Translations under genes and position numbers: made by a program
Assembly: GCA_006503475.1 (NCBI GenBank)
Contig: RSEH01000051.1
Span: forward strand, 122,505 to 186,504
Length of the DNA stretch: 64,000 bases
Origin: Stentor roeselii
Taxonomy: Eukaryota > Ciliophora > Heterotrichea > Heterotrichida > Stentoridae
Direction: 5' to 3'
In this document: positions 4,265 to 56,734 of the stretch, one piece after another
Layout: each line of letters starts with the position of its first letter
Position numbering within the stretch: position 1 is the stretch's first letter
The notes under the pieces: model-generated
What the model saw: the letters and a program-made list of their open reading frames with translations, nothing else
Databases searched by the model: none
What the model was told of the DNA's origin: nothing

Positions 4265-4773
4265 CCAGATTATAGCTATGGTAATCCTCGATTTTCATAT
4301 AAGATTAAACCAACCAAGTTACTTTCACAATTTCCAATCTAAAACAACCATCACATAAAAAAAATCCATCTAAACCACTCTGATCAAAACCCTTCCATCT
4401 CTTATCACCCAAGAAAATAATTCCCCATTCAAAATACACCCAAAGCATTCTTCACTTTCGACTGATCCTCAAATACCAAAACCTTCCCAAAAAAAACCCA
4501 GATCCAAAAGCCTTAACACCCAAATCAATCTTCCAAAAATCTCAATCCCAAATTCCAAAACATAAAAAAACCTAATCTCAATTCCATTGCAAAACCCTTT
4601 CATATCTTTTTCCCCAGATCTTCCCAGAACCCGAAACTTCTCTAAAACCAAGCCTTAAACAACTTAAAAAAACCATCAAATCATTCCTTTCCAAATCCTT
4701 CAAGAAGCTTCAGTCAAATTTCCAACTGTTCTCAGGTTCATCGCCTTTCAAGTGTGGCTAAAAATGGCTGATA
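4265..4773. other. G-poor 5' flank of the zinc-finger gene
   Basis: No gene is seen. The + strand is almost free of G (A/C/T only over long runs) until about 4690. Such composition recurs upstream of plus-strand genes in this window; see the strand-skew finding. Confidence 0.6.
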
Positions 4774-7794: not shown

Positions 7795-8358
7795 ATGTGG
7801 ATCTCGTCTTTCAAGTCAAAAGCACGATCGTTGAACCTCGGATTAGCCGTCGAGCAAGTTGAAGCTGTTGGACTGCTTCAGGAACTCCAAAGCTTGCTTA
7901 CAAGGGTCAGGTCTACTGTTCAAGGACTTGGATTTAAAGAAATGGTTTCTATCTCGAAGCTGTTGGTCGAAGAAGTTTGGAATGAGGGGAAAAAATTTGA
8001 GGATTTGAGTACTTCGAAGGTCACTTTGCAGAACAGCACTATCAATAAGTCGCAGTCTGGGACTATGAGAAACTCTATTATTAGGAAAATTGAATTTCCG
8101 GTTCCTTCAACTCCTTCGAGATATAAACTGCAAGTAAGTCAAGATCTGGCCTACATGGTAATATCTATTCAGTCCTCCTTCTCCTTCCCTAAAGGCTGTG
8201 GAACATTTTACAAAAGCCGTAAAAACCCGCTTGATAAAATCGGTGAAAGTCCAGGTCCAGGTTCCTATTTCTGTGATCCACGTTCCCTTCACCATTCAAG
8301 ATCATCTCAACTCTCCAACTCCGCACGTAAACTATCAATATCCTTAATAAAATATTAG
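7795..8358 (+). CDS. SHIPPO/STPGP-repeat-like ciliary protein, one 15-nt intron
   Basis: Reading through gives 187 residues; removing the candidate 15-nt intron at 8158-8172 (in phase 0, so transparent to the frame) gives 182. The N-terminal half is helical. The C-terminal half contains GESPGPGSYFCD, a sperm-tail PG-rich (SHIPPO/ODF3) type repeat, preceded by FPKGCGTFYKSRKNP. Such proteins bind or decorate axonemal and cortical microtubules, which would suit a ciliate; this assignment rests on one clear repeat. The stop codon lies 2 bp from the stop of the convergent gene at 8361, so the transcripts' 3' ends must overlap or be extremely short. Confidence 0.65.
   Translation: MWISSFKSKARSLNLGLAVEQVEAVGLLQELQSLLTRVRSTVQGLGFKEMVSISKLLVEEVWNEGKKFEDLSTSKVTLQNSTINKSQSGTMRNSIIRKIEFPVPSTPSRYKLQVSQDLAYMVISIQSSFSFPKGCGTFYKSRKNPLDKIGESPGPGSYFCDPRSLHHSRSSQLSNSARKLSISLIKY
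8158..8172 (+). other. Candidate 15-nt intron (SHIPPO-like gene)
   Basis: GTAATATCTATTCAG has the same 5' GTAAT, A at position 10 and CAG end as the firm introns. It contains no stop and is a multiple of three, so the frame alone cannot prove it. Confidence 0.6.
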
Positions 8359-8360
8359 AA

Positions 8361-9506
8361 CTAGTTATCAAATTCAAAACTAATAGAGCTCTTCATAATC
8401 TGCCTAAGCAGCTGAGGTTTTGCCTTAACAAGTCTAAATAAACCTCACGCTAAAACATTGACTAAAAAGTAAGGACTAGCCCTAAAGTGTCCATTTTGCA
8501 AGACTTCAAGTCCAAGATCCACTAAATTTTTATGTTTCTTCTGCAAATGCTCTCTCAACGACGAGTCTGAAGTAAACTTCGAAGTTTTACAAGCAGGACA
8601 CAAAAACCCTTTCTTTTTAATATTCTGATTAAAAGTCCTTGGTTTCAATTCCTTCGACACGAGTTCAACAAGTTCTTCAACCGGCTTACTCATCATATCA
8701 TCTACTTTTTCATTACTGATCATATCCTGGTTAATTCCAAGTTCTGACAACGAAAGTCCTTTTTCAGTATTTTTCATTTCTGACTGTACCGATTCACCTT
8801 CAGAGCCTTCAGCAACGTCCTTGACTTTATCAAAGCTGCTCTCTGAGTTACTTTCAATCATTTGTTTCAGCTTCGTGTCACAACTGAGAAGTTTTGAAAG
8901 ATGAGTGATTTTATTTGAAGGTTTATTCAACGCGTCTTTGGCGAAATGAGTCTCGATCCTTAAAATTCCTGAATCTTTCGGCCTCTCGAAGCCGCCGGTG
9001 AAGTCTTCAGTTTTGTCCCATTGAGTGTTTTTCCCTGGCGCGTTTTGCTTTTCCTTGTAAAGAGAAATTGACTTGTTCGTGCAAATTATTATGTTCCCTG
9101 CCTGGCCTTCCTTCGCCTGGACTGATATTGAAGAGATGTCTCCGAATTTCACCTCGATTCGACGTTTTTTCTGCTTGTCGTCGGAGTTGCTGTTGTCGGT
9201 GTATTCCCAGATGAACTGCTTCTTTTGGAAGTAGATTTTCGAGATTAGCGCGGAGTTTGAGTCCACCAGGAATGAACCTTGGCTGCCTTGACTGGTTATT
9301 CGTAGGGATTCAGCGTTGATCTCGCTTGGAAGGACTTTACTTTCTGGAAAACCTGCTCGGGAACCTCCTCCGTTGAACTGGTCTTCTTCCAGTTGGGATG
9401 GTGTTGGTTGGGATGGCATCATTTGAGTTGGCAGGCCGGGCTGAATTGTCTTAGGCCTATCAAGGCTTGGGGTATAGTGACGAACTAATCCTCCGAATCC
9501 TAGCAT
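8361..9506 (-). CDS. PH-like/C2H2-like zinc-finger protein, two exons
   Basis: Exon 1 is 9506-8449 and exon 2 is 8433-8361, joined over a 15-nt intron (8434-8448); the product has 376 residues. Without splicing, the frame would stop at a TGA inside the intron; splicing adds a coding-like 24-residue tail. The N-terminus is Pro/Gln/Ser-rich. Residues about 80-140 (KIYFQKKQFIWEY ... RRIEVKFGDISSISVQ) read like the KRKLVWE ... IEIxWSDI pattern of plant TRF-like proteins, a weak resemblance. Near residue 310 there is a C2H2-like finger (CPAC ... HLQKKH). It may bind DNA; this is inferred. It is divergent from the SET gene, with only 16 bp between start codons. Confidence 0.75.
8434..8448 (-). other. 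15-nt intron (zinc-finger gene)
   Basis: GTGAGGTTTATTTAG on the minus strand carries an in-frame TGA; excising it restores an open frame that continues for 24 codons to a TAG. Confidence 0.8.
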
Positions 9507-11726: not shown

Positions 11727-13754
11727 ATGTCCGACACAAGTATCACTTCAATCTTTTCCGCAGTGATTTTAGACCTGTTAATATTTTCAGTCCTTTTCAC
11801 AGTCTTCCTCTTCTACCGCAAGGTGCGTAGCCCAGTGATTCACCTCGACCATGAAATCAAGTTAAAAAAACCTTCTTTACCTGAAGGCGAGCATGACTTC
11901 CTCCCGCTGCTTCAAAAAGTCTACCAAATGTCCATCGAGTCCGTTTATTTATCAATAGGCGAATGGGGTGCTATCTACTTGACTCTTCATAATTACATCA
12001 TTCAAGTGCTTCTTTCATATGCCTTCATTTCTATTCCAGTGCTTATAACGATTTACCTCCTGGGCAGTTCTGATGTTGATGAAAAATCAAGCAAACTAGG
12101 TATTTCTCATGTGATAGAAAATGAGGATTACTTGATAGCTCCAATCATTTTCATATTCGTTCTGACTTTTTTCATATCTTTTCTCGTTTTTTACTTCTAC
12201 CGAAAAGTGACTTGTGAGAGCTTTCAAGAGATGCAGACTCAGTTGAACGTAGTGAAAATCACCAATATTCCGAAGAACTTTCCTCCTGATTACATCAACT
12301 ACAAGATCAAGAAACTTATGATGAGTCAATATGATGAGAACGTGCAGGGGATTTACACGATTCCTAATTATGAAACTGCTTACAATAGGATGTTAAAAGT
12401 CAAGAGCCTTCAGGAAAAAATGAAAGAATATCAATTTAAACTCAGTTCTACAGGGAAAAGACCCATGGTTCTTAATAAAATGCTTAGAAAAGTAGACGCT
12501 ATTGAATATACACAAGATCGCATTCTTGCTACTCAAGATGAAGTTGCAAGGGCAAAGGACTTAGGAATCTTCTGCAACTCAGGAAAAGCCTTTGTTTTTT
12601 GTAAGACTCATAAAAAAGCTAAGAAAATCATCGCAATGCGCTTTGGAAATGATGAAATTATTAACACAGATTTACTTAATTTTGAAATCGCCTCTAGTCC
12701 TGAAGACGTGATTTGGAAAAATGTTGGAGTGAATTTAAATTTTTCAACGACTTCTCGTATTTTGTATAATTTGTTGTTTGTTTTTCTGTTTTTGATGATT
12801 TTGACACCGACTACTTTTAATTATTTGATTATTTCACTTGTGGAGAGTATTGGAGGAGGGACACTTTTGAAGGGGATTATTGGAGTTTACTTGCCATCGC
12901 TGTTGTTGCTTGTTTATCAGCAGGTTGTGTTACCTGAAGCTGTTGAATTTTTGGTGGCTAGGGAGAATCATTCGTATAAACATGATGAAATCTCGAGTGG
13001 ACTTAGGAAGTACTTGTTTTATCTTGTTTTTTATATATTTTTGTATCCTTTGCTTGGACTCAGGTTTATTGAATTTGTTAAGATTTTTTTTGACTCGAGT
13101 GTGGACTGGGAAGAAGAGTTTGCGAATAGTGTTAATGAAACTGGACAGTTTTTCACTGTTTTTCTTATTCATGAATGTTTCATTAAAAATGGATGGGATT
13201 TAATGGTCACAGGTAAGTACTTCAAATCAAAAGCAAAAGCACTAATAGCCTCAAACGACGAAGAGCGTGCTCTAGCCTTCGAAGCAGAAGACTTTAAATT
13301 TGACTTAGAACTCGCGATATCATTGAACATCTTCATCATAGTCTGCAGTTTCGGTGTAGTTTACCCATTAGTGATAGTTCCAGGTCTCGGTTTTTTCGGA
13401 TTAAGAGTAAGACTTATTCAGTACTTCGTTCACAAGCACAATCTTTTAGCAGTCTTTTACGTGAATCGAAATTCATCAGCCTTTCCTGTTCTTTTCTCAA
13501 TTCTCTGCTCAATCTCAATAGCGATGTTTTCAATGCAAGTGCTGACAGGGGCGACGTTGATTCTATCAGGTGTTGATGATTACCTAGTGATAGCTAAGTT
13601 GATAGTCCCTGCATCTTTTTGTCAACTTGTTCTTTGTATTCTTTATTTCAATAATTTAATCGCCAAGGGCAAGGTCGAAAGGGTCAAGGAAAGTGAAAGA
13701 CTTGTGCAAGTTGATGAAAGAGAGTTTTATCATCCTTTGGATAAAGATGAATGA
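11727..13754 (+). CDS. OSCA/TMEM63 (CSC1-like) mechanosensitive channel
   Basis: The 675-residue membrane protein has an N-terminal segment, two further membrane helices, a cytosolic domain with the RRM-like pattern VVKITNIPKNFPPDYINYKI and GKAFVFCKTHKKAK, and then the channel core. SSPEDVIWKNVGV matches the family's entry into the pore helices. About ten membrane segments are visible, and YFVHKHNLL matches the late conserved motif. Family members are stretch- or osmotically gated cation channels, sometimes with lipid scramblase activity. The protein ends soon after the last helix. Codon choice changes abruptly near 13,205 (T/G-ending to A/C-ending codons); see findings. The stop is TGA. Confidence 0.93.
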   Translation: MSDTSITSIFSAVILDLLIFSVLFTVFLFYRKVRSPVIHLDHEIKLKKPSLPEGEHDFLPLLQKVYQMSIESVYLSIGEWGAIYLTLHNYIIQVLLSYAFISIPVLITIYLLGSSDVDEKSSKLGISHVIENEDYLIAPIIFIFVLTFFISFLVFYFYRKVTCESFQEMQTQLNVVKITNIPKNFPPDYINYKIKKLMMSQYDENVQGIYTIPNYETAYNRMLKVKSLQEKMKEYQFKLSSTGKRPMVLNKMLRKVDAIEYTQDRILATQDEVARAKDLGIFCNSGKAFVFCKTHKKAKKIIAMRFGNDEIINTDLLNFEIASSPEDVIWKNVGVNLNFSTTSRILYNLLFVFLFLMILTPTTFNYLIISLVESIGGGTLLKGIIGVYLPSLLLLVYQQVVLPEAVEFLVARENHSYKHDEISSGLRKYLFYLVFYIFLYPLLGLRFIEFVKIFFDSSVDWEEEFANSVNETGQFFTVFLIHECFIKNGWDLMVTGKYFKSKAKALIASNDEERALAFEAEDFKFDLELAISLNIFIIVCSFGVVYPLVIVPGLGFFGLRVRLIQYFVHKHNLLAVFYVNRNSSAFPVLFSILCSISIAMFSMQVLTGATLILSGVDDYLVIAKLIVPASFCQLVLCILYFNNLIAKGKVERVKESERLVQVDEREFYHPLDKDE

Positions 13755-13773: not shown

Positions 13774-14016
13774 ATGGAATTTGGATTTGATTGCAGGATT
13801 CAACAGGCTATTCAGGTTGAACTTAGATGTTTCACTGCTAAGGAACTGAGAAGAGTTGTTAAGAAGCAGGTTGAAGTACTGAAAGTTACGGATTCTAGCT
13901 TTTTTTTGTATGTTGTGGGAAAGTTGCAGTGTGGAGGATTTAGATGTATGAAAAAAGTTGAGCTGCAAGGTGTTCTTGGAATGATTTTAATGTATAGATT
14001 AAGTAAGATGATTTGA
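13774..14016 (+). CDS. Small hypothetical protein (80 aa)
   Basis: An ATG preceded by ATATTATT, 19 nt after the channel gene's stop, opens an 80-codon frame. Codon use looks coding (many GTT, GAA, CTG, AAG). The product is basic (KELRRVVKKQVEVLK) with no recognisable domain. A 15-nt segment GTAAGATGATTTGAG at its end could be an intron that extends the frame, but it ends in GAG and the extension is unconvincing. The ORF lies in a G/T-rich stretch typical of 3' flanks here, so it may not be a gene. Confidence 0.4.
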   Translation: MEFGFDCRIQQAIQVELRCFTAKELRRVVKKQVEVLKVTDSSFFLYVVGKLQCGGFRCMKKVELQGVLGMILMYRLSKMI

Positions 14017-16313
14017 GTAATATTGATTATTTTAGATTTTGGATGCTTTTTGTTGATGATTCAGCTGAAATTGCGATCTTTCATTAATATTTCAGCAATT
14101 TGACTAGTTTTTAGCTGAAAGATTGGATTATTTTTAAGTAAGAGAGCTAGCTTAGATTCGCAATGATTAATTATTATAGTGAATTTCTTTAGAAATTAGA
14201 AATTTCATTACCTACAGATGTTAATTAATCACAAATCAGTTAACCTAAGCTATAAAAATAAATGATCACTTCTTCAAATATCCACAGATCATTGATAAAA
14301 ATGACTTAGTACTTTTTCATTAATTAAAAAACTTTATCATTTCCCGCTGAGCAACTTGGTGATTGCATTTTACAAAGCCAGGCACCTTAAAGTTATTTTT
14401 TAACAGCTTGAGTTATTTAAATAGAAAAACTTTACACCTCGTGCAGTTAACTACTATAATAATTAATTTTTGATAAATTTTAGTGTGCTGATCCAAAATG
14501 ATAGATTAAGTATTTCCTTTTATCTTTCTGACTATAAAGTAGAGAAAAAATCAATTGGAAAATAAATCGCTGTCATTAAATACATTGGAAAAAAGACTTT
14601 GTAGTGTGAAATCTATAATTGAGTTGATGAGATAGCATCGGCCTAAGCCTCTATCTTTTCTTTACTTTCAGTCACTTCAATCATTCAATTTTTTGAAATT
14701 TTTTGAGAATGATTCAAGAGATTAATCCAACACGATTATTTTAAATTTTAAAATGACTCAGTTTCTATTCATTCTCTCTTTAAAATTCATTTTTATTCAT
14801 CATATTTCAATTTTTTGAGTCAGAAGACCTCCCATGCTTTAGATTTAAAAATATTTAAGACTATTTTCTTTATTTATATTTATTTCATTCAAAAGCCGAA
14901 TTCAAAATGAGTGTGATTCGCATGCGTCTGTGAATTTTCGATTTACCTTCCTAATTGATAAATCCTTGTAAATACCTAAAAAAATCGATTTTTAGAATGA
15001 ATGAGAAAAACTCCGAATATTAAACTAAAGGTCAAATTTTTTAATTTGTTCTTGTTGTCTGAATTCTTTTGAATTTATTTTGAAATTAGGTGGTCGGATA
15101 TTATTTAAACGTCCAAAATACATTATGGGTTAAATCCTGAATATGTAAAGATAAGCATAATGATACTTAAGTACTTTCCTTGCATATATATCGTTTATTC
15201 AACTATTGATTCTCAGCCAAGTTCTCAAAATTTTTACATGGGAGTTGAATTATTTTAAAACATTAAATTCCTGAAATCAAAGCGATGCTGAGTCCAAAAA
15301 TCTAAAATTTGAAATTCTTTTATAATTCGAACTCATATATAAAATATTTAATCACAATAACATGATAATTTAGTATAAAATTTCAGGATTATTATCATCT
15401 GTAGTACCCGTGTGATTAGAACTAATCATCTTAACCGCCTTGTCTCTCATATCAAGAAAATTCATAATTCTGCACATCGTTCACCTTGAAAATCCACTCA
15501 CTATCCTAGCAACTTCTGTAAACGTAAAGTCGTAGTTCATAGTAAAGCGTTAGATCTTCTTGGGCGTCACTTCCAAATATTCAATCCTCAATAAAATTTT
15601 CTCAAAAGCGGTTGATGTCTTTAATAATTATGCAGATTTTTTCCAGGAGTTCGAAAAATGTCTTCTCTAAACATTCTCTCAGTTATCACTCTTTGAATTC
15701 TGTTGTTTAAGCAACTTCAGATGTTGCTTGGAAGTTTTGATTAGATATTCAAGACCTGTTAGTTATCTTCAGTGATGGAGATCGATTTGAGCATTTCGAT
15801 TCGTAAGATACTTGGATCGGAACTGGTGAAGTTTGATATTTTTGCAGCAGAGAGTTAGAGAAAGTAAAATAAATCAGGGTTTCAGGCTTGAGGAGACATT
15901 TTCTAATAGATGTTTCCTAGATCTTTTTTCAATTAGTCTTGCAAATCCGGATTTTCCTATCTCACAGAAGAATTTTCAACATTCCTAAAATTCCTGAAAA
16001 GTTGTCTGAACTTCAGTATGTTCAAACCTAATAAGTTTACAAATAAATCATTAATTCTAAGTTATTTTCTGTAATAAATTTCATTTTAACCAATCAAAGC
16101 ATATTTCTCAAATTTCCCCATAATTTTTTCACATCTAATTTTTTACTTTCCTTCAATAATTCAAAGTTTCTCAAGTTTCAGATCGTGATTCATTCAATCT
16201 CATTCCAAACTACCGATCAATACTTCCCCCTGTTTATTCTCCCCTAAAACCCACGAAAAATCACCCAATAACCCAAAAAACTCCAAACTAAAAATTCTTC
16301 CTATTAAAAATAT
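14017..16313. other. Gene-poor AT-rich region, 2.3 kb
   Basis: No intact gene, tRNA or rRNA is recognised. The only coding-like trace is the relic on the minus strand at 15370-15640. The rest is low-complexity AT-rich sequence. Confidence 0.5.
15370..15640 (-). pseudogene. Possible decayed coding relic
   Basis: One minus-strand frame reads through about 90 codons with only two stops. The part before the first stop includes FEKILLRIEYLEVTPKKI; after it come MNYDFTFTEVARIVSGFSR and MRDKAVKMISSNHTG. The second stop (TGA) lies in a possible 15-nt GTGAACGATGTGCAG intron; the first is not removable. The pattern of short amphipathic helices vaguely recalls DUF4476-type repeats, but I cannot assign a family. 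It may be a relic or chance. Confidence 0.3.
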
Positions 16314-18054: not shown

Positions 18055-19776
18055 TTATGAATAAGCATCTTCTTTCAAACAAAACGCTTTTTCAAGCTCA
18101 TCGAGATAGGCTTGGCTCACTTCGTACTTTAAAATTTCTTTGGTTAACGAGCTGCAGTCAACACCTGCAGCGAAAACTTGCAAAGTCCCTTCTAAGTCGC
18201 TGCCTAGAACGTACGGCTGGAAAATGCTGAATAATCCAAGACAAGCTGATATTAAAGCAGGCCAGCCATTGACTAAAAAGAAGTCCCAAATGCTTTGAAC
18301 TATCAAGACACTTACTCTTTTACCTATAAGACAGGTAAAAACAGTAAGCAGCCAAGGTGTAACAATAACATCAAGCCTAACCTCAATCCTCTTCAAATGC
18401 CTAGCAAAAAACGGTAGTTTAAGCTTAAGCAGGTACTTCAACTGAAAAATCGCAAGTTTAAGTCTAGTAAATCCAGTTTTCCACAAATCCCCCAAATAAA
18501 AAGGAGGTCTAAGCAAATTAAGCAAAGCACCTAAGACCTCATTACTATCCCTAAAAGCTCCAAGCAAAAAATGCGCAACTTGTTGCATTCCCTGACAATA
18601 CCCAACATTAGGAAAAAGTGCACAAACTCCAATTAAAATTTCTTCAACCTCTTCAAACTGCCCAGGTACTCCTCTATTAACATCTTGCTTAATTTCCTCA
18701 ATGACCTCAGGTAAGACCTCTTGCCCCATGGCAGCGATTTCCGTATCATAAAACTTATTCACATAGACCCTCCAACTGATTCTTCTCGGTACAAGTCCAG
18801 CTCTAGCAATTTTTTTCCAGTTTTTTTTACTTCCCCATTGCGCCAGAGTCAATCTTCTAAGCCTCGAGGAAACCGCGCAAAGTTTCAATTGTTCCGAAAA
18901 ATTCAAAAAAGTGAGAATTTTTTTCCAAGGGTCGCCTTCAAAATGCTGGGTGTTAAGAACTTGTAGATGTTTATTAACTGAAGTAAAAGATTCGTTTAAA
19001 GCTTGAATTTCTTGATCTTTTTGTTGAAGAGATCGCACTAGGTTCCCTTGAGTTTGCTTTAAAAGAAACTTGTCGCCGATTAGGTTTACTACTTTTTTTT
19101 CTAGTTCGGTTAAAACGGTTTGATGAGAAAAAAGCTCGACTTTACTGACCAGGTCGTTTAGAAGAAGCTTTATTGATTCTTTTTCGAAGACTTGAAGTTC
19201 CCGCTCGAAGTACCTTACTCGAAGCCATTCGCGATACTGGGTTTCTCGAAGTTTTATTATTTCTTCTTCGTTTTCTTTATTGCGGATTGCGGAATCTACG
19301 TATTTTCTTAGGCCGACTGAGGAAAAACACTCTTTTGCGTATTTTAGAAGGATTAAGGAATTGGTGTACCATAAGTCTCGGTCTGAAAGGCTTTTACTTG
19401 CAAGAAGAAGGTTTTTTCGACGTGTTTTTAAAGTGATTGGGTAGAGAAGGTCGTTTTCCCGCTTTACTTGAATGCAGGAACCGGAGGAAATGTCTAAAAT
19501 GTCGGGCGTGAAGATCTTTTTTAGACGATTTTTTTCGGTTGATAGGTTTAGGATGTTTAGAGAGTCGTTGAAGTACACACGACTTGAGATCTTCTGACCT
19601 TTAGAGGAAAAAAATATAAACATGTGGTGCTTTGTTAGGTAGCTTATCACTTTTTCAAGAGGAATGCTGTCTGAGGTTATCGAGGACACGTGCTCTTCTG
19701 TGCTTAGGTCACTGTAGCTACCTATGCTGCCTGAGTTGGAACTCTTGTGATTAGTCGTTGTCGTAGTTCGATCCAT
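18055..19776 (-). CDS. TBC-domain RabGAP with F-box-like segment
   Basis: The 573-residue protein has an N-terminal PH-like part (about 45-150: VYFNDSLNILNLS ... LLLASKSLSDRDLWYTN), a coiled coil (about 165-275), an F-box-like helix set (DPWKKILTFLNFSEQLKLC, about 283) and a TBC domain from about 330. Both catalytic fingers are kept: the Arg finger in IKQDVNRG (about 364) and the Gln finger in YCQGM (about 394), so GAP activity towards a Rab is expected. IWDFFLVNG marks the last conserved block. The Rab partner is unknown; a Rab gene lies 10 kb away. F-box-like plus TBC is an uncommon pairing in animals. Confidence 0.9.
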   Translation of the reverse strand: MDRTTTTTNHKSSNSGSIGSYSDLSTEEHVSSITSDSIPLEKVISYLTKHHMFIFFSSKGQKISSRVYFNDSLNILNLSTEKNRLKKIFTPDILDISSGSCIQVKRENDLLYPITLKTRRKNLLLASKSLSDRDLWYTNSLILLKYAKECFSSVGLRKYVDSAIRNKENEEEIIKLRETQYREWLRVRYFERELQVFEKESIKLLLNDLVSKVELFSHQTVLTELEKKVVNLIGDKFLLKQTQGNLVRSLQQKDQEIQALNESFTSVNKHLQVLNTQHFEGDPWKKILTFLNFSEQLKLCAVSSRLRRLTLAQWGSKKNWKKIARAGLVPRRISWRVYVNKFYDTEIAAMGQEVLPEVIEEIKQDVNRGVPGQFEEVEEILIGVCALFPNVGYCQGMQQVAHFLLGAFRDSNEVLGALLNLLRPPFYLGDLWKTGFTRLKLAIFQLKYLLKLKLPFFARHLKRIEVRLDVIVTPWLLTVFTCLIGKRVSVLIVQSIWDFFLVNGWPALISACLGLFSIFQPYVLGSDLEGTLQVFAAGVDCSSLTKEILKYEVSQAYLDELEKAFCLKEDAYS

Positions 19777-21579: not shown

Positions 21580-22497
21580 TTACTTAAAAATATTGAACCC
21601 ATAAAACTTAGAAGGGTCAAGATAAGTCCCTTGATCAGGAATTGCATTGATCTTCTCAATATCCTCATCATCTAAAACCAAATTCCTACTTTCTAAATTT
21701 TCTCTCATCCTACTTTCATTTAAAGTCTTACAAATAACAGCACATTTTCTACTCAAGCACCAAGCGATAAGTACCTGAGCAGGACTACGGCCATGCTTTC
21801 TAGAAATCTCTAAAACAACTGGGTCATCCATGATGCATTTGTCCAAATTGGTAAGATGATCAAGTTTACTTCCATAAATAACCCGATAAGCGACAGGCAA
21901 GATTGAATTTCGCTGACAGAACTCAACAAGTTCGACTCTTTTGTTATATGGATTGATTTCTAGTTGGTTAATATCTGGTATTATGTTGGCATAGCCAAAC
22001 ATATCATTTAATAGAGCGACGGTCCAGTTGGAGACTCCGATTGAGCGAACTAGACCTTCTTGCTTCACTTGTTCCATTTGGGCCCAGACAAGATGCAAAG
22101 GGTACCTATCAAGTTTTGGTTTCTCTACAAAAGGAGGAGGCTCAATATCAGTAGGCTCAGTTGCGAATGGCCAATGCAAGAGATACTGGTCCACATATGT
22201 TACCTGCAGTCTTTGAAGACTATAAATAAGTGCTTCTCGCACTTTTCTATATCTCGATATGAAGCATTTCGTTGTGATGAAAATTTCTTCCCTTCTTTTC
22301 TCTCCAGATGTGAAAAGCTCGTTGAGTGCTTCTCCTACTTCGGACTCGTTACCGTAAACTGCTGCTGTGTCGATATGGGTGAAACCTGCTTGAATCGCAG
22401 ATATGACTCTTGATTTTGTTTCAGATTTTGGGATTCGTGAGACTCCGAATGACATAGTTGGCATCTTGTGGCCTGAACGTAGTTCTAGTTCATTCAT
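21580..22497 (-). CDS. Aldo-keto reductase
   Basis: The 305-residue protein covers the family's full TIM barrel. The catalytic tetrad is complete: Asp43 and Tyr48 in HIDTAAVYGNE, Lys77 in FITTKCF and His108 in YLLHWP. GVSNW near 157 and the late NADPH-binding region VICKTLNESRMRENL are present. It should reduce aldehydes or ketones with NADPH. In the usual late motif IPKS/T, the Lys is present in ICKT. The substrate cannot be told. The start context is AACAATAAAAATG. Confidence 0.94.
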   Translation of the reverse strand: MNELELRSGHKMPTMSFGVSRIPKSETKSRVISAIQAGFTHIDTAAVYGNESEVGEALNELFTSGEKRREEIFITTKCFISRYRKVREALIYSLQRLQVTYVDQYLLHWPFATEPTDIEPPPFVEKPKLDRYPLHLVWAQMEQVKQEGLVRSIGVSNWTVALLNDMFGYANIIPDINQLEINPYNKRVELVEFCQRNSILPVAYRVIYGSKLDHLTNLDKCIMDDPVVLEISRKHGRSPAQVLIAWCLSRKCAVICKTLNESRMRENLESRNLVLDDEDIEKINAIPDQGTYLDPSKFYGFNIFK

Positions 22498-24612: not shown

Positions 24613-26070
24613 CTAATACCCCAACATCGGATATCTCTTCCTAATTCTCTCCACAACTTCTCTCGCCGCATCTTTAACCCCAGGTCTCTCTAAAAAAAAG
24701 AACTGCGGCAAGAAAATCCCTTTTCCAAACTTCAACTCTTCCTGAATCCATGCAAAATCGACATCAATCCTTAAAATCCTTGCCAAATCTCTAACATAAC
24801 TAAAATGATCATAAGGTTGTTTAAGTCCTCTAAAAGTCCTGATATATTCCTCATCCCTTATCCCCTGATCAATTTCATCAGAAGATATCAAAAGATTTCC
24901 CATCATAAAGCTGAATCCGAGTTCAGCTTCCATTTCATATCTCGCCAAAACTCCAAAAACATAATTTCCAACAAAGCAAAACCTTGGAAGTTGAGGATGA
25001 AAGACTGATCGAAACAAAACAGTTGCTAAAAGTCTTGAAGACTTATCAAACTGAATAATCTTTAAAATATCTTCAGATAAAAAGGAATAATCCGAGTTAT
25101 ACCCAGTGCTCACTAAGACCACCTCAGCTTCAACAAGTCGCCCATCATTTAAAACCACTCCTTTTTCATAAAAATGACTGACTTCCCCTTGAATACATCT
25201 AATTTCCTTATTAAATACTGCCTTTTGGTAATCCTCTCCTAAAACATACATGTTTACAAAGTTTGACTTGAGAAACTCTTCTGAAATTTCCCATTCAGGA
25301 AGGATTTTTCCAGGATTTCCTAAAAATCCGAGAAGATCTTCACTTATCTTCGAACTTCTTTCAAGTGACGGAAGGATTTGATAGTCATTTTTTAGTTCTT
25401 CAAGTTTGTAATAAAAGAACTCATAAGGGATTTCATTTAAGTACTTAGGCATGCAGATACTTGCTTGTTTATAAACTTGTGTCACACTCGCTGCTGTTCG
25501 AAGCGCATCAACAGCGACGTCTGAAGCAGTCGAGCTTTTTCCAATAGACAAAACATTTTTTCCTTGAAAAACTTGAGGATCTCGATACTTGCCTCCAGCG
25601 ACAATAATACCTTGAAAGCTTTCAGCATTAGGAAAAGGATTTATTTCTTCTGAGTACTTCCCTGAAGCGACTACTACAAATTTAAAGATTTTTTCATGAA
25701 AATTTCCAGATTCTTCCCATCGGACGAGATAATCTTCACCATTTTTTTCAACTCGCAGTACCTGCGAGTTAAGATGAATGTATTGGTCTAGGCCGTGTTT
25801 AGCGGTGTAAAGACAGAGGTACTCATAAACCTCGTCTCTTTTTGGGTAGTCTTCGTGAGTTGAGGGCCAGGGCATGTCAGAAAAAGACATAAAATCTTTA
25901 AAAGTGTTTGTGTGCATCGAGTCCCATGCACCGATGTTGGAAGGAAGACAGTTCCAGATACCTCCTTTTCTTGAAGATTTTTCGAATATCACTGGGGTTA
26001 GACTCAAGTCGAGACATTTTTTACCTGATGCGATTCCTGAGAACCCTGCACCAATGATGCAAACTTCCAT
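24613..26070 (-). CDS. Flavin-containing monooxygenase, diverged NADPH site (copy 2)
   Basis: The 485-residue FMO-like protein begins with the FAD dinucleotide fold (IIGAGFSG, residues 5-12), followed by GGIWN and the conserved FSDMPWP stretch. In the second (NADPH) Rossmann motif, GxGxxG is replaced by GKSSTAS (177-183), and the FMO identifying motif FxGxxxHxxxY lacks its His (FQGIIVAGGKYR). Full FMOs oxidise soft nucleophiles (N, S) using NADPH; the altered cofactor site suggests changed or lost activity. It lies 18 nt downstream of the better-conserved paralog and is evidently a tandem duplicate. Confidence 0.87.
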   Translation of the reverse strand: MEVCIIGAGFSGIASGKKCLDLSLTPVIFEKSSRKGGIWNCLPSNIGAWDSMHTNTFKDFMSFSDMPWPSTHEDYPKRDEVYEYLCLYTAKHGLDQYIHLNSQVLRVEKNGEDYLVRWEESGNFHEKIFKFVVVASGKYSEEINPFPNAESFQGIIVAGGKYRDPQVFQGKNVLSIGKSSTASDVAVDALRTAASVTQVYKQASICMPKYLNEIPYEFFYYKLEELKNDYQILPSLERSSKISEDLLGFLGNPGKILPEWEISEEFLKSNFVNMYVLGEDYQKAVFNKEIRCIQGEVSHFYEKGVVLNDGRLVEAEVVLVSTGYNSDYSFLSEDILKIIQFDKSSRLLATVLFRSVFHPQLPRFCFVGNYVFGVLARYEMEAELGFSFMMGNLLISSDEIDQGIRDEEYIRTFRGLKQPYDHFSYVRDLARILRIDVDFAWIQEELKFGKGIFLPQFFFLERPGVKDAAREVVERIRKRYPMLGY

Positions 26071-26088
26071 TATTAGGAATAAAGATTA

Positions 26089-27558
26089 TTATAATTTTGC
26101 TGTTGAGGATTTAAAGTCTTTTGTGAAATTTTCGCAGATTTTTGATTGGCCTTTGCGATCTGTGAATAAAAAGTAAGGGACGAAGGGACCTGAGGAGAGA
26201 CCGAGAGTTCCTTTTATGTAGTCGAGGTTTGGATTGTGTTTTAAGATTCGTAGACATTCTTTTAAGTAACCTAGAGGATCGTAGTCGGAATAGAATTTTG
26301 AAAGGTTTTCACGAATCCAGTGCTCTTGGTTTATACCTTGCCATTGATGGTGAATGCTCAAGTTAAGTACTCCTGAAAAAACCCTAACAACAATTTCAGC
26401 CTGCAATTCAAACCTTCCCGCTCCTCCAAAAACAAACCCAACAAATCCAAGTCCAGGTAAATCCGGATGCAAGACTCTCCGATAAGCCAAAAAAGGACAC
26501 AATCGATTTTCCCTCTGATACTTTAAAACATTCTTAATCCCCTGAGACAAAAACTCTAAATTGACACAATACCCAGTGCAAAGTACGACAACATCCGCAA
26601 GAACAATTTTTCCATTTTTCAAAACAACAGCATTTTCATTGAATCTTTCGACATCGCCTTGAAAACATCGAATTTTTCCTTTCTTTACAGCGTCGACATA
26701 CTCCAAACTACAAGAATGCTGCCCATGTTGACCTTTTTCAGCAAGTTCTTCATCACTTATATGCCAATCTTTCAGTATTTCTCCAGGATTTCCTACAGTT
26801 TTCATCAATTTCGCCTGGTTTCCAGGAACTGTGTCTGGAAAATTGATGAAATTTCGAAAAGATGAAAAATTACTGACTGTGTTAAAAATATAGTCATATG
26901 GAGCATTTTTCACGGTTTTTGGAATTATGATCATTTTGCTTCGCCAGATTTGGGTCACTTGTTCTGATGTTTTTGAAGCTTCTAAAGAGATTTCAGAACC
27001 TGAGACTCCTTTTCCGATGCAGACTACTTTTTTGTCTTTGAATAGGGAAGGGTTGCGGTACTCGCTTGAATGAAGGATAAGTCCTTTGAATTGGGATGAA
27101 CCTGGAAAGCGTTTTGAGGATGGAGGCTGTTGGAAACGCCCGGTAGCGATGATGACGAACGGAAAGTGCTTTGAAAATGTTTCAAGACCTGTTCTCCAGA
27201 AAACTTGATACCCTGGGTTAGCGAATTCCACTGAAACCACTTCAGATGAACCTTGAAAGTAACGAGACAGGTCGTGCTTTAAGATATAAGAGTCCAGATA
27301 AGCAGTAAAACGATCTCCTTTTGGAAACGCCGCGTCTGATAAGGGCCAAAGATGATCTGAGTAGCCTGCAAGATGCTTACTTCCGTTTAAATGAAGAGAA
27401 TCCCAAATACCTGCATCTTTTGATTTATTTTTCCAAAGTCCTCCTAGATTTGATGATTTGTCTAAAATTGTTGGATGTAAATTTTGGCTTAAAGCTACTT
27501 TGCAGGAAATGATTCCAGAATACCCTCCTCCTATTATGCAAACTTCCATTTTTATCAT
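26089..27558 (-). CDS. Flavin-containing monooxygenase (copy 1)
   Basis: This 489-residue paralog keeps both dinucleotide motifs: IIGGGYSG near residue 8 and IGKGVSGSE (181-189), and the FMO motif FKGLILHSSEYR (157-168) with its His. GGLW and FVIIATGRFQQP follow the family pattern. It should be an active flavin- and NADPH-dependent monooxygenase. The start may be M1 or the ATG at codon 4 (MEVCIIGGG), which matches the start of the tandem copy. Codon skew changes near 26,380. Confidence 0.9.
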   Translation of the reverse strand: MIKMEVCIIGGGYSGIISCKVALSQNLHPTILDKSSNLGGLWKNKSKDAGIWDSLHLNGSKHLAGYSDHLWPLSDAAFPKGDRFTAYLDSYILKHDLSRYFQGSSEVVSVEFANPGYQVFWRTGLETFSKHFPFVIIATGRFQQPPSSKRFPGSSQFKGLILHSSEYRNPSLFKDKKVVCIGKGVSGSEISLEASKTSEQVTQIWRSKMIIIPKTVKNAPYDYIFNTVSNFSSFRNFINFPDTVPGNQAKLMKTVGNPGEILKDWHISDEELAEKGQHGQHSCSLEYVDAVKKGKIRCFQGDVERFNENAVVLKNGKIVLADVVVLCTGYCVNLEFLSQGIKNVLKYQRENRLCPFLAYRRVLHPDLPGLGFVGFVFGGAGRFELQAEIVVRVFSGVLNLSIHHQWQGINQEHWIRENLSKFYSDYDPLGYLKECLRILKHNPNLDYIKGTLGLSSGPFVPYFLFTDRKGQSKICENFTKDFKSSTAKL

Positions 27559-27900
27559 TTTAGAGAAGGTGATTTGGTGTGGTTCGTTCTTTTTAGTTGA
27601 TTTGTATGGATTTGAAGAAGAATCAATAATTTTTCAGAGATTTTTTTAATTTAATCTCATCTTTAATGTTAATATTGAAGTTAAATTAATTTTAAGTATC
27701 TTCATCTAAGCATCTAAATATCGCTTAAATTTTCTCTTAAAAAAAAATTTTCATAATTTCCTCTTATTTAATTCACCCATAATAATTTTCTAAAAATCTA
27801 TAGACTTTTCATATTCTTAAAGTCATTAAAAACATTATCTAATTCATGATAAAGACTAATATTCAATTATTTTTTTTAATTTCTATAAAACCTAATTAAT
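27559..27900. other. Intergenic, no feature seen
   Basis: This AT-rich 342-bp spacer separates two minus-strand genes; no coding or RNA signal is visible. Confidence 0.5.
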
Positions 27901-29578: not shown

Positions 29579-29645
29579 TTATATGATGAAAAATCTAGTA
29601 TCATTAAAGTAGCTATTTTCTTATTCAACTTTTACATTAGAAAAT

Positions 29646-30263
29646 ATGATTTTGAATAGGTATCCAATAGATAGCGATGTCAAGTTCAAAGTAGTCATTG
29701 TCGGTGATACAAATGTCGGAAAGTCTTGCATTATTCGTCGGTTTGGCTGTTCTACCTTCGTGAATGACATTCAGTCTACTGTTGGAGTTGATTATTTGGA
29801 AAAAGTGGTTTCTTATGACAATTCTGAATGCAAATTACAAATAGTAAACTCAAATTAGTGGGATACTGCTGGGCAGGAAAGGTTTAGGACTATTATTGCT
29901 GGATATTATCGAGGCGCCGACTCAGTTATCTTTGTTTTCGATAAAACCGGAAGAAAAAGCTTTGAAAATGTTGATGAATGGGTGAGGGAAGTAAGCGAAT
30001 ACACAAGCGAAAAAGTAATCAAAGTCCTGGCAGGTAATAAAAACGACTCCAACTCTTTAATCACTGATAGTGAAGGATACGCAAAAGCCAATAATCTTGG
30101 CCTTCAGTACTTTAGTGTAAGTGCGAAAACTGGAAATGGAGTCAACTCTCTATTTGATTATATTACTAAGGAATTGATTGAAAAAAGTAAGAAAATCAAT
30201 GGCCAGACAGCTGGAATTAAACTTGGAGGGAATCAGTCTTATTCTAAGAGTTGGTGTTGTTAA
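29646..30263 (+). CDS. Rab-family small GTPase, one 15-nt intron
   Basis: Exons 29646-29843 and 29859-30263 encode 200 residues. G1 is GDTNVGKS (20-27), switch I has STVGVDY, G3 WDTAGQERF spans the exon junction directly after, G4 is GNKND and G5 is SVSAK. The C-terminus SWCC is a double geranylgeranylation signal. Without splicing the frame stops inside the intron, just before WDTAGQE. The YYRGADSVIFVFD block is typical of Rab1/8-type secretory Rabs, but the exact subclass is uncertain. It would regulate vesicle traffic and need a GAP such as the TBC protein in this window. Confidence 0.96.
29844..29858 (+). other. 15-nt intron (Rab)
   Basis: GTAAACTCAAATTAG ends with an in-frame TAG; excision joins KLQI to WDTAGQERF, the invariant G3 motif. 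Confidence 0.95.
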
Positions 30264-36065: not shown

Positions 36066-37073
36066 ATGAAAAAACAAGTGTAATTTCCATTCAGTATCTA
36101 CGCAAAGTGCAGTACCTGGGCGCGAGACTCTCACATGTTATTCGACTACGAAAACAAAGACGTGACTCGCAAAAGTCTCAAAATAGTTTCGAACTGTTTC
36201 ATTTCCCGAACCTCTCGCGACGTGGAAGCCACTCAAGAGGCGACATCAGAGACTTTGTTAGGAATAACTCAAGATTCAGGTTTTTTAGTCTCTTCAATTC
36301 ACCAGCCTCTTTGGCAGGTGATTCGAAATGCGCGAGGTGCTCCTGCAAAGCTTTTTTCACTGCGACAAGGAACAGTGATAAAGTTGGGCAGGTTGCAATT
36401 TGAGGTAAAAGCTCTGAAAAGTAAAGAAGACTATCTTCAAGAAGTAGAAACTGTACGAATCAAAGACTTGAGCAAGACTTGTCGGATTTGTTTCGTTGAA
36501 GATCAATTTGATGACCCTTTGATTTCGATTTGTAAGTGCTCAGGGTCGATTGAAGGGCTTCATGTTAAGTGTCTTCAGTCTTGGATCCTTTCGAAGATCA
36601 CCACGTCTGGCGAAAGTTCAGTCATGAAGTTTTTAAGGTCCATTCATTGTGAACTGTGTAGAGAAAAACTGCCTTTTATTGTGAAAGTTGAAAATGTTGT
36701 TTATGATATGCTTAAGGGACATAAACCGAAAGTTCCTTTTCTTATTCTTGAAGGGATTCAAAGTGAACAGAGGGAACCTGGAGTTTATTTGATTAGCTTT
36801 GCTGATAAACAGTCGGTCATGCTTGGAAGGGGACATGACTCGGATGTCAGAATTCCTGATATTAGTGTCTCAAGGTGTCATGCGAAAATCAGCTTTGTTG
36901 GGAATGAGTTCTTTGTGGAAGATAATCTTAGCAAGTTTGGAACTTTGGTTAAGATTGATACACCTTTTGTACTTGATGGAAAAATCACTTTGCAGTGTGG
37001 AAGGACTGTTGTTGAACTTTCAAAAACTTCGAATGGAAAGGATGATAAGTTTGAGTGGGAAGTAGATGGATAA
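36066..37073 (+). CDS. RING-CH (RINGv) plus FHA domain protein, one 15-nt intron
   Basis: Exon 1 (36066-36079, MKKQ plus two bases) and exon 2 (36095-37073) give 330 residues. The reading is favoured over a start at 36135 because removing GTAATTTCCATTCAG links an ATG to an otherwise open frame. The middle has a C4HC3 RING-CH domain (CRICFVEDQFDD ... CKCSGS ... HVKCLQSWI ... CELCREKLPF), typical of MARCH-type E3 ligases. The C-terminal third is an FHA domain (VMLGRGHDSDVRIPD, SVSRCHAKI) that binds phosphothreonine. The N-terminal part ends in an FHA-like strand (GTVIKLGRLQFEVK), so a degenerate second FHA is possible. No membrane helix is seen, unlike most MARCH ligases. Confidence 0.87.
36080..36094 (+). 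other. 15-nt intron (RING-CH/FHA gene)
   Basis: GTAATTTCCATTCAG follows MKKQ and contains an in-frame TAA; the A is at position 10 and the 3' end is CAG. Confidence 0.8.
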
Positions 37074-49509: not shown

Positions 49510-50925
49510 TTAATTAATATTCGGGTACCAAAGGTTGAGTGCTTGGTAAATACCTGCCAGGTATTCAAAGATAACCAAGGCAGGTCCTGCTTTGTCACAA
49601 ACATCGAGGACCAGAGACTCTTGAAACTAAATAACTCTTACTTTGTACACCCTTATATCAAACCTCACTAAACATCTACCGTTCACAGGCCTGACCCTCA
49701 AAAAAAAATTATCAATAATCCGCCATTCTAAGCCATTTTCCTTCAAAGCTACAAAAAGTCGCTCCATTAAAATCAAAGCTTTCGAGTTCCATCGAATTCC
49801 ATAAACCCAGTTATTCGGAGTAACAGTTTTATCATTTTTTAAGATTTTCGGGTAACTTCTACTTCTTTTCTTGAAAACTGCCGGGTCTTCTGAATTCAGT
49901 GATTTTTTTTCCATGTCAAGTAAAATTTTATAAGTTGTTGAAAAATCGTTTTTCATTCCTTGCTTTAAAAGCTGAACTGCCTGTGAAGTGGTTAGTTTGG
50001 TGAAAGGCTCTAAAGTAAGACACTTTGCAAGAACGGACTTGTTCAGGCCTAATGAAAGTCGAATTGTGGGAAAGGGTCTTTCAAGTGAAGTGAAAAGCCA
50101 AGGATGTGACTTTAGCTGATTGACAGTGATTCGAGTGATCGGGTCAGGCACGAGCATCCTACAGATCAAATCTGTCAATTCAGGTGAAAAAGTATGAGGA
50201 ATTCGAAACTTTCCAGCTTTTTATCTCTTACTCTTTATCTTGTTGAATAAAATAGGAATACTGCTCTCGTCGAAAGGAAGGACTCCTGCAATGATCGCGT
50301 ATAAAATCACTCCAAGTGACCAGATGTCTACTTCAGTCCCGCAGTACTTCTCACCTGAGATTATCTCTGGAGAGGCGTAGTTCGGAGACCCGCAGGAAGT
50401 CTTTAGAAAGTCGCCGTCACGGATGAAGTTCGCAAGGCCAAAATCGCAGAGTTTTAAAATGTTTCGCTTGTCGACTAAGAGGTTCTCAGGTTTTATGTCT
50501 CGATGAGCGATTCGGAAAGAGTGGCAGTAGTCGATCGCTGAAAGGATTTGACGGAAGTAGTCTTTCGCTTCTTCTTCGGAAAACCTTCCACGTCTTTCGA
50601 GAAGATTGTAAAATTCTCCGTCACTTGCGTACTCAGTCACGAGGATTGTGCTTTTTTCGGTCTCGATCACTTCGTAGCTATGAAGGGATTACAGACGGAT
50701 TATGTTTGGGTGGTGGAACTTTTTTAGGATCTTGATTTCTCTTTTTATTTTAGAGTCGTTTGATATGTCTGACGTGCTTGACCTTTGAATGAATTTTATA
50801 GCGACTTTTGCGCATGTTGGGATGTGAACAGCTACTAAGTAATTATTACGTTTTACTTTGCCGAATGAACCTGCCCCTAATGGTTTTATTATTTTGTAGT
50901 TTTCTAAACCTGGTTTTTGGGACAT
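49510..50925 (-). CDS. AMPK/SNF1-type protein kinase, four exons with 15-nt introns
   Basis: Exons 50925-50693, 50677-50232, 50216-49642 and 49626-49510 join to 456 codons. The kinase has GAGSFGKV, VAIKFI, HRDIKPENLL, DFGLAN and the activation loop LKTSCGSPNYASPE with the LKB1-site Thr. Junction sequences restore NIIRL-YEVIET and KIK-TGKFRIPHTF, both AMPK hallmarks. PDPITRITV ends the kinase. A C-terminal KA1-like domain (NWVYGIRWNSKALILMERLF ... VRFDIRVYK) is completed only by the last exon (FQESLVLD ... YLAGIYQALNLWY). It acts as energy-sensing catalytic alpha subunit. The stop sits 17 bp before the lipase-like start. Confidence 0.95.
49627..49641 (-). other. 15-nt intron 3 (AMPK)
   Basis: GTAAGAGTTATTTAG on the minus strand ends with an in-frame TAG; splicing adds a 38-residue KA1 end. 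Confidence 0.9.
50217..50231 (-). other. 15-nt intron 2 (AMPK)
   Basis: GTAAGAGATAAAAAG contains an in-frame TAA; excision restores the TGKFRIP block at the end of the kinase C-lobe. Confidence 0.93.
50678..50692 (-). other. 15-nt intron 1 (AMPK)
   Basis: GTAATCCCTTCATAG puts an in-frame TAA after NIIRL; excision gives NIIRLYEVIET. It is the only one of eight without A at position 10 (A at 12). Confidence 0.93.
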
Positions 50926-54808: not shown

Positions 54809-55546
54809 TTAAAGTGAAGCGTAGGTTAATCCTGAAGCTGTTATATCGCCGTTTGCATCGAAAAAAGATGATGTTCCCACTTCTGAATCATGCCAAGCGT
54901 ACCTCTGGATGAAAGAAGTCGATTCCATCCACTGGCTTGTCTTAATGATGAAGTTGTCAACAGCGTCCTGAGTAAATTTGGTGGGGTTGGCGTCGGCACT
55001 GCTGGCAGTTTGAGGAGCGTATTCAGTCACCCAAATAGGAAGCTTGTAGGTGTTGTAAATACTTGTCATGTCTGATTTGAACTTGGCAACGTCAGCGCCT
55101 TTGTACCAGTGAACACAAATGAAATCGACTTTTGGAAGGGCAGCCATGAACTTAGGCAGCCAATCACCTGTCACTGGATTTCCTGCCATTGCAGGGCCTC
55201 CTATGTAAGTGGCTTTTGTTACCAGCTGAGGCCAGTATTGAAGAGCCTCTTCGACTAACATGTTGGATTGCTTTATGTTGTCAGGCTCGTTGAAGCCAAG
55301 AACGTAGCTTCCTTTGATTGGATAACTAATTCGATTATCAGAGTAAATCATTGGAACGAAGGGAATAGTTGTCGAAACAATTGTGGATGCACCCCAATTG
55401 TAGTACCATTTCACATTCAAAAGGGATAACTGCTGAAGACCTAGACGGCTCTCTGGAAGCCCGAAGCCTTTCTTTGTCGCTTGCTGAGCTGATGAAGGAT
55501 GCAAGAGAGTTAGACAGAGCAATGCGAGAGCAAGCACGGATTTCAT
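54809..55546 (-). CDS. Secreted GH128/Asl1-like glycoside hydrolase (copy 1)
   Basis: The 245-residue protein starts with a signal peptide (MKSVLALALLCLTLLHPSSA) and contains the glycosyl-hydrolase catalytic core: WYYNWG, FVPMIYS, LGFNEPD (acid/base Glu87), HWYKG and WVTEYA (nucleophile Glu175). These match GH128-type endo-beta-1,3-glucanases, a fungal and bacterial family that is uncommon in animals. Secretion and digestion of fungal or algal beta-glucan is the likely role, for a ciliate that feeds on microbes. It is a tandem duplicate of the gene at 55994; gene origin by transfer is possible but not shown. Confidence 0.85.
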   Translation of the reverse strand: MKSVLALALLCLTLLHPSSAQQATKKGFGLPESRLGLQQLSLLNVKWYYNWGASTIVSTTIPFVPMIYSDNRISYPIKGSYVLGFNEPDNIKQSNMLVEEALQYWPQLVTKATYIGGPAMAGNPVTGDWLPKFMAALPKVDFICVHWYKGADVAKFKSDMTSIYNTYKLPIWVTEYAPQTASSADANPTKFTQDAVDNFIIKTSQWMESTSFIQRYAWHDSEVGTSSFFDANGDITASGLTYASL

Positions 55547-55993
55547 TATTAGCCATTGTTTTTAGTGTGGAAAAGGTTAGAGAAGATGAAAAAAAGAAAG
55601 GGAAATTATTTGATTTTTGAATTTTATTTTTCAAGTTGGAGTCAATTCTTAAAGAAATTATTTAAACTTCAAAGGAATCAACATAGTTGGCATAACAGAC
55701 ATTTTTATATATATTGATTTATCTTTTACTCCAGGAGTTACAAGAGGTATCTAAAAATATTCAAAGATCTTTGAAATGAGAAAAATTTTACTTTAAGTTC
55801 ATTGAAAATCTAAAAATGCAGATATGCAAAAATTGACTTTCAAAGCCTTGCTGAATCTTTCAAAATAAAAAAAGATAAATCAAATAAGAAAATCAAGTCA
55901 AAAAAATTTCCTAGATTTATTCTCAATCCTCTAAAATCATTTCTAAATAAGATCTCAATCATTCCTACCTTATTCAAATTTAATGATATCTAC
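55547..55993. other. Spacer between glucanase copies
   Basis: A 447-bp AT-rich spacer lies between the two tandem genes on the minus strand; no coding trace or repeat is seen. Confidence 0.5.
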
Positions 55994-56734
55994 CTAAAGT
56001 GAAGCCCAAGTCTTTCCCCCAGCAGTCAAAGCTCCATTGCTATCAAAAAGTGCTGAAGTTCCAACCCCTGAGTCATGCCAAGCATATCGATGCATATAAG
56101 AAGTCTGTTCCATCCACTGACTAGTCTGTTTCATGAAAGTATTAACAGTATCCTGGCTATACTTATAAGGGTTGGTCTGTGAGTCTCCATTAGTCTGAGC
56201 AGCGTATTCCGTGACCCAAACAGGTAAATTATAAGTGCTATAAACCGCCTGCATGTCCGACATGAACTTAGTCAGATCAGGTCCTTTATACCAATGAACA
56301 CAAACAAAGTTGACCCTCGGCTTGGCAGCCATGAACTGAGGAAACCAAGTCCCAGTCACTGGGTTTCCGGCCATTGCAGGACTTCCAACTGTTGCTGCTT
56401 TCGCAGCAACTGAAGGCCACAACTGAAGAGCTTCTTGAACTGACATGTTTGACTGGTTTGCATTGTCAGGCTCGTTGAAGCCCAAGACGAAATTGCCGGA
56501 AGTCGCGTCGTTTATGTGGTTTTCTGAGTAAATCATTGGCACGAAGAGAATCGATGTTGATAGTCCTGTGCTTGAACCCCAGTTGTAGTACCATCGAGCG
56601 TTTAGCGATGTTAACTGTTGAAGGCCTAAACCTCGGGACTCTGCAAGGCCTACTCCTTTTTTCGTTGTTGATTGACTCGCTGTTGGATCCAGGCAAAGCA
56701 GTAACATGATTGAAAGGGTTCCAAGGATGTTCAT
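55994..56734 (-). CDS. Secreted GH128/Asl1-like glycoside hydrolase (copy 2)
   Basis: The 246-residue paralog has a signal peptide (MNILGTLSIMLLLCLDPTAS), WYYNWG, LGFNEPD (Glu88), HWYKG and WVTEYA (Glu176). RYAWHDSGVGTSALFD matches copy 1 closely, so the duplication is fairly recent or constrained. Both catalytic Glu are kept. A third, dead copy lies upstream on the same strand at about 57.3-57.7 kb. Substrate assignment (beta-1,3-glucan) follows from the family. Confidence 0.85.
   Translation of the reverse strand: MNILGTLSIMLLLCLDPTASQSTTKKGVGLAESRGLGLQQLTSLNARWYYNWGSSTGLSTSILFVPMIYSENHINDATSGNFVLGFNEPDNANQSNMSVQEALQLWPSVAAKAATVGSPAMAGNPVTGTWFPQFMAAKPRVNFVCVHWYKGPDLTKFMSDMQAVYSTYNLPVWVTEYAAQTNGDSQTNPYKYSQDTVNTFMKQTSQWMEQTSYMHRYAWHDSGVGTSALFDSNGALTAGGKTWASL

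Follow-up and report, generated by a model that had tools for sequence, protein, structure and literature searches.

To our knowledge, the 15-nt introns of heterotrich ciliates are the shortest class of spliceosomal introns. For Stentor coeruleus, the main text of Nuadthaisong et al. 2022 (PMC9505925) gives a length of 15 nt for 8173 of 8806 annotated introns (92.81%), the rest being 16 nt, with A at position 10 (A10) in 8005 introns, an AT content of 75.63%, and a predicted lariat of 10–11 nt with a 5-nt tail. Across heterotrichs, ∼95% of introns are described as being 15 bp long (PMC11441545), and the branch-point proposal is credited to Slabodnick et al. 2017 (in PMC10946202). Blepharisma stoltei, as described for its genome of 41 Mb and 66% AT, likewise has mainly 15- and 16-bp introns (PMC9942806). 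Very short introns are also described in the karyorelict Loxodes magnus, from the sister group of the heterotrichs; unlike here, their mode is 17 bp, introns below 16 bp are negligible, and lengths divisible by three (3n) are depleted (PMC11441545).

We analyzed a 64,000-nt stretch of a Stentor roeselii contig (hereafter, the window), together with a genome of 44.4 Mb in 522 contigs. A sequence-only reading of the window had described eight introns of exactly 15 nt, beginning with GTAA or GTGA, ending with AG, and in seven cases carrying A10; it gave coordinates for the intron in a Rab gene, and the other seven were matched here by description. All eight segments are present in the window at exactly 15 nt (Rab, three AMPK-like, PIPK, RING-CH/FHA, TRF2/HOY1, and SHIPPO-like), with GTAA in seven, GTGA in one, AG in all eight, and A10 in seven, the exception (50678–50692) having T10. 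The A10 tally stays at seven of eight if this segment and the silent, that is stopless, segment 50835–50849 are both counted among the three AMPK introns of that reading. The expectation that further silent introns may lie hidden in long ORFs was borne out by two additional segments in the window (50835–50849 and 13407–13421). We regard the eight-intron observation as confirmed, and its interpretation in terms of a fixed branch point and silent introns as supported at the level of sequence. The putative introns, each 15 nt long, are as follows:

8158–8172, + strand: silent intron of a SHIPPO-like gene, phase 0, GTAATATCTATTCAG, A10.
8434–8448, − strand: candidate intron toward the 3′ end of a TRF2/HOY1 PH-like gene, phase 2, GTGAGGTTTATTTAG, A10.
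13407–13421, + strand: silent intron of a TMEM63/OSCA-like channel gene, phase 0, GTAAGACTTATTCAG, A10.
29844–29858, + strand: intron of a Rab GTPase gene, phase 0, between KLQI and WDTAGQ, GTAAACTCAAATTAG, A10, TAG in frame.
36080–36094, + strand: candidate intron of a RING-CH/FHA gene, phase 2, near the 5′ end, GTAATTTCCATTCAG, A10.
49627–49641, − strand: candidate intron of an AMPK-like kinase gene, phase 0, near the C-terminus, GTAAGAGTTATTTAG, A10.
50217–50231, − strand: intron of the AMPK-like kinase gene, phase 1, GTAAGAGATAAAAAG, A10, TAA in frame.
50678–50692, − strand: intron of the AMPK-like kinase gene, phase 2, GTAATCCCTTCATAG, T10, TAA in frame.
50835–50849, − strand: silent intron of the AMPK-like kinase gene, phase 1, GTAATAATTACTTAG, A10, no stop in frame.
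62426–62440, − strand: intron of a PIPK gene, phase 2, GTAAACAACATTTAG, A10, joining two frames.

In the unspliced translation, the Rab intron appears as an exact five-residue insertion relative to solved Rab1 chains. Its removal scored highest among all excisions of 9–24 nt (+11.2 bits), and its site and phase are common to nine further Rab paralogs, grouped by eye. In the AMPK-like kinase gene, 50678–50692 and 50217–50231 each correspond to an exact five-residue gap against AMPK alpha and each also joins two frames. The silent segment 50835–50849 corresponds to a five-residue gap against AMPK alpha chains; its excision raised the Pkinase score from 257.2 to 267.3 bits and left that of PK_Tyr_Ser-Thr nearly flat (141.9 to 141.4 bits), and its site and phase match those of stop-bearing introns in two other kinases (L033 and L034). 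This segment is, to judge by these alignments, the fourth intron of the gene, additional to the three described previously. Removal of 49627–49641 gains 38 open codons downstream, and the residues upstream of it align to the AMPK C-terminal domain; the basis of this candidate is frame, motif, and coding score. With A only at positions 3, 4, 12, and 14, 50678–50692 (GTAATCCCTTCATAG) is the sole homology-supported intron without A10.

For the PIPK gene, whose GPCR part is a label of the sequence-only reading, a 15-nt GT..AG stretch occupies the same site as 62426–62440 in two close paralogs, L096 and L097. Between the same landmarks, three more distant paralogs without an intron have 18, 17, and 15 residues, and the window gene has 18 residues when spliced and 23 when unspliced. 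The gene (60688–62745, − strand) belongs to a large family, with 55 genome matches, many of which contain at least one in-frame TAG or TAA. The SHIPPO-like label was likewise taken over and has weak support; at the site identical to 8158–8172, a paralog of this gene (L041) has a stop-bearing counterpart, GTAAGGATTATTTAG, in which a TAG is in frame. Excision of 13407–13421 from the TMEM63/OSCA-like gene raised the RSN1_7TM score from 62.6 to 74.9 bits; the gap in the TMEM63A alignment comprises four residues and is placed a few residues upstream of the segment, not exactly there. Further stopless 15-mers lie in the window at 51242, 42075, 18200, and 8702.

The introns of the window had been said to be placed by domain restoration, which holds for some of them and not for two: what the RING-CH/FHA intron connects is just a short stretch at the N-terminus, and the TRF2/HOY1 intron adds no more than a 3′ extension. 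The former, on the basis of frame and motif, connects the ATG at 36066 with a long exon. The best 18 non-self matches of this gene start at residues 2–9 of the downstream ORF, the first ATG of which is residue 18. Because these matches start before that ATG, coding extends upstream of it, as the intron model requires, and continues at least into the vicinity of the 3′ splice site of 36080–36094. The gene (36066–37070, + strand) has 80 genome matches, 30 of them above 100 bits (self included). We matched the TRF2/HOY1 gene to what had been called a zinc-finger gene, a C2H2-like finger having been identified by eye. Joining the frames across 8434–8448 drops a TGA and gains 23 codons with a positive coding score, and the basis of this candidate is frame join and motif only; a search of the genome for a second copy of the gene gave no further match. 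We infer splicing at the RING-CH/FHA and TRF2/HOY1 junctions and treat both, with the removal of 49627–49641, as candidate splice events. Elsewhere in the window, adjacent FMO-like monooxygenase genes (24616–26085 and 26092–27633, − strand) and neighboring glycosyl hydrolase (PF11790) genes (54812–55561 and 55997–56746, − strand) look like local duplications.

The length of 15 nt stands out in a scan for frame joins, that is, GT..AG stretches whose removal joins two otherwise blocked coding frames. The sample of 275 kb comprised the window, 11 short kinase loci, and kinase matches with their surroundings in 20 further regions, each of 10 kb. It contained 24 joins at 15 nt and at most 6 at every other length from 8 to 40 nt, and the numbers of 15-nt joins for seven control pairs of dinucleotides were 2, 2, 4, 0, 2, 2, and 0. 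At lengths of 41–60 nt, the number of joins climbed to no more than 11, and that of the controls climbed too, up to 18. A10 was found in 21 of the 24 joins at 15 nt; 6 of the 24 lie in loci chosen for holding a stop. Apart from the T10 intron of the window, A10 is missing from two joins (L019 and L025), both of which may be false. The scan contained two 16-nt joins, both weak, and, unlike in S. coeruleus, no 16-nt intron was established here, in sampling that is blind to most of them. For weak scores or want of a domain, we set aside the window joins at 14003–14017, 26879–26893, 29598–29612, 4462–4476, and 19135–19149, as well as the 16-nt joins at 26162–26177 and 21583–21598; A10 is present in 26879–26893 and 29598–29612.

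Excision scans, which presupposed neither length nor A10, were carried out on protein families across the genome. For Ras/Rab loci, each stretch of 9–24 nt was removed at each position, 20 bases at either end excepted, and the translation was scored against a profile; kinase loci were treated in the same way with lengths of 12–18 nt. The Ras sample comprised 45 of 150 matches, namely 14 of the 15 with stops (C119:62238-62705, with four stops, was left out), 16 stopless matches of at least 495 nt, and 15 of 486–489 nt. The Ras profile was seeded from four seed-only loci and from L068 and L070, which were also scanned, so that an intron in these two could be masked. The kinase sample comprised 23 of 135 matches (all 12 with stops and 11 stopless), and 8 of the 135 served as seeds. 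A GT..AG excision was preferred if its score was no more than 3 bits below the highest, which set L051–L053 one base from the best register; the GT..AG ends are thus partly given by construction, and position 10 is not.

In 21 of the 45 Ras/Rab loci the optimum lay at 15 nt and was a GT..AG stretch (one base off in three), and the 12 stop-bearing kinase loci yielded 13 introns. The best excision length was 15 nt for 32 of these 34 introns and 18 nt for both introns of the kinase locus L035, where the 18-nt excisions beat the 15-nt ones by 0.5 and 2.3 bits. The gain in profile score on excision was 6.6–13.9 bits. A10, which played no role in placement, is present in all 34. No 15-nt GT..AG excision was found in the other 24 Ras loci scanned, nor any intron in the 11 stopless kinase loci at 12–18 nt. 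In 9 of these 24 Ras loci (L063, L065, L072–L075, L083, L091, and L094) a non-GT..AG excision gained 6.1–9.1 bits, the top length being 12 nt in six and 10, 18, and 22 nt, respectively, in the remaining three. Gains of this kind look like natural loop differences, and similar second-round gains were seen in L051–L053, L057, and L059. Since the scanned loci were chosen with one frame matching throughout, 16-nt introns, which shift the frame, are invisible there. The Rab-like locus L058 (G000:C458:2451-3060) combines a 15-nt intron with an in-frame exonic TGA that a 15-nt intron does not explain, and is perhaps a pseudogene. A tandem run of Rab-like matches (G000:C119:58721-62705) includes one copy with four in-frame stops (1 TGA and 3 TAA) that may also be a pseudogene.

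We pooled the 34 excision-scan introns with ten others: the four of the AMPK-like gene, those of PIPK and its two paralogs, those of the SHIPPO-like gene and its paralog, and that of the TMEM63-like gene. Within these 44 introns, 49627–49641 is supported by frame, motif, and coding score rather than by homology at the junction, and stop-bearing loci are over-represented by design. All 44 are 15 nt, 43 begin with GTA, and 43 have A10; by comparison, A fills 102 of the 352 places at positions 5–9 and 11–13. The nominal binomial P for the enrichment of A10 is ∼2e-22, a value that ignores kinship in a set in which many introns are paralogs. Unlike in S. coeruleus, with its 75.63% (PMC9505925), the AT content of the introns is ∼70% here (463 of 660 bases). 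Phase 0 accounts for 32 of the 44, a marked skew that stems partly, and perhaps not wholly, from ascertainment. We also considered whether T13 is favored in phase-0 introns as a phase-dependent stop signal; it occurs in 23 of 32 phase-0 introns and in 7 of 12 others (Fisher P 0.48), and we make no claim from so few introns, among which stop-bearing loci are over-represented.

Introns of paralogs fall into groups, drawn up by eye, that share site and phase: ten Rabs between KLQI and WD, five between GVDF and KIKT, four kinases between QLYE and IIET, and four smaller groups. These groups give 71 same-site paralog pairs that are not independent of one another, and none of the 71 differs at position 10. 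Positions 3 and 4 agree at 0.87 and 0.90, and the remaining positions at 0.23–0.62; positions 1, 2, 14, and 15 are also identical but were used for placement. Splice sites together with a branch adenosine would be expected to be conserved in this way, which suggests that position 10 is such an adenosine. The proposal of a fixed branch point there, made from the eight window segments, agrees with the scanned introns and with these pairs.

The spliceosomal RNAs are consistent with such introns. One match each above the gathering score was obtained for U1, U2, U5, and U6 snRNA, and the motifs of U1 (ACUUACCU), U2 (GUGUAGUA), and U6 (ACAGAGA) and the U5 loop (GCCUUUUAC) are canonical. Similar to what is described for S. 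coeruleus (PMC9505925), the system here combines a length of 15 nt, GT..AG ends, A10, AT-rich introns, and canonical U1, U2, and U6 motifs. The segments are almost certainly U2-type spliceosomal introns such as heterotrichs have, nearly all of exactly 15 nt. U1 would recognize GTAA at the 5′ end of the intron, and U2 would position the adenosine at position 10. Branching at A10 would then form a lariat with a loop of 10 nt and a tail of 5 nt that terminates with AG; the exons would be joined. The constant length and the constant A10 would reflect the one geometry that the spliceosome permits. Removal from the RNA and the role of A10 as nucleophile are what we infer from these regularities.

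Stentor uses the standard genetic code, and the standard stop codons are seen here. This bears on the possibility that the segments are translated, with in-frame TAG, TAA, and TGA read through or reassigned and five extra residues kept. Such a reading would account for introns that are all 3n, which is partly a result of how they were found, and for the 11 of 44 that have no stop; we nevertheless consider it very unlikely, as TAA, TAG, and TGA each end long ORFs (65, 47, and 14 of 126, respectively), the in-frame stops sit within 15-mers with fixed GT, A10, and AG, and excision restores gapless domains with the gains in bits given above. A10 is moreover constant across three reading phases, which would not be expected from coding drift and already contradicts translation. 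None of the 135 kinase matches listed contains an internal TGA, and the termination of 14 of the 126 long ORFs by TGA is unlike Blepharisma, where UGA is described as encoding tryptophan (PMC9942806). Stop-codon use and telomere repeats together suggest a heterotrich other than Blepharisma, most likely a Stentor-like one.

The segments might instead be internal eliminated sequences (IESs) at the DNA level, or germline remnants in the assembly, and not RNA introns. Ciliates do excise short DNA, some IESs being described as near 26–28 bp; against this origin, which we judge to be highly improbable, stand the GT..AG ends, the fixed inner A, and the sites kept between paralogs. The telomere repeat (CCCTAACA)n, the unit of which is also that described for B. 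stoltei (PMC9942806), gave 547 overlapping three-repeat matches genome-wide and none with the reversed control. Among the matches listed, it lies no more than 80 bases from the start of a contig or, for contigs of known length (C11, C59, and C69), at the end, and telomere repeats at contig ends suggest that the genome is already macronuclear. Finally, the idea that chance GT..AG 15-mers were chosen during frame repair is hardly credible: GT..AG at a given spacing is indeed common in AT-rich DNA and the joins in L019 and L025 look chance-like, but the 15-nt peak with its controls, the excision scans, and the conservation of sites between paralogs refute it for the set as a whole; for the TRF2/HOY1 junction it could still hold.

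Splicing of 15-nt segments has a particular consequence for the silent ones. As 15 is a multiple of three, stopless introns look like insertions of five amino acids. In-frame stops are absent from the 11 stopless introns among the 44 homology-supported ones and from 7 of the 21 in the Ras/Rab set; because ascertainment was not random, the former is a rough share. Among paralogs, one site can hold a silent intron in one gene and a stop-bearing intron in another, as in the AMPK-like gene compared with L033 and L034 and in the SHIPPO-like gene compared with L041, and the silent introns are, we believe, real. In other ciliates, 3n introns are described as under-represented and as carrying an excess of in-frame stops, as though nonsense-mediated decay had to police retention (PMC5014332). 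Because nearly all introns found here are 3n and a sizeable share of them are stopless, heterotrichs may have escaped such a nonsense-mediated “spell-check,” either through accurate splicing with a single geometry or through tolerated retention of five residues; we offer this tentatively, as a possibility that we ourselves doubt somewhat. Some of the forms that retain an intron might also serve as functional isoforms.

Since the pattern has already been published for S. coeruleus, the introns of the window are a rediscovery of known biology. What is already known concerns 15-nt introns with A10, and silent introns are less discussed: in-frame stops within 15-nt introns are not taken up in the main text of PMC9505925 or in the titles and abstracts found, a search whose scope ended short of the supplements and the 2017 paper. 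The raw sequence alone confirms such introns, with one fixed geometry, in this genome. Gene models built without RNA evidence would keep silent introns as false five-residue insertions in conserved domains, the families affected here being Rabs, AMPK, TMEM63, and the SHIPPO-like genes. The share of stopless 3n introns makes a possible role of translation-coupled surveillance in shaping such introns testable.
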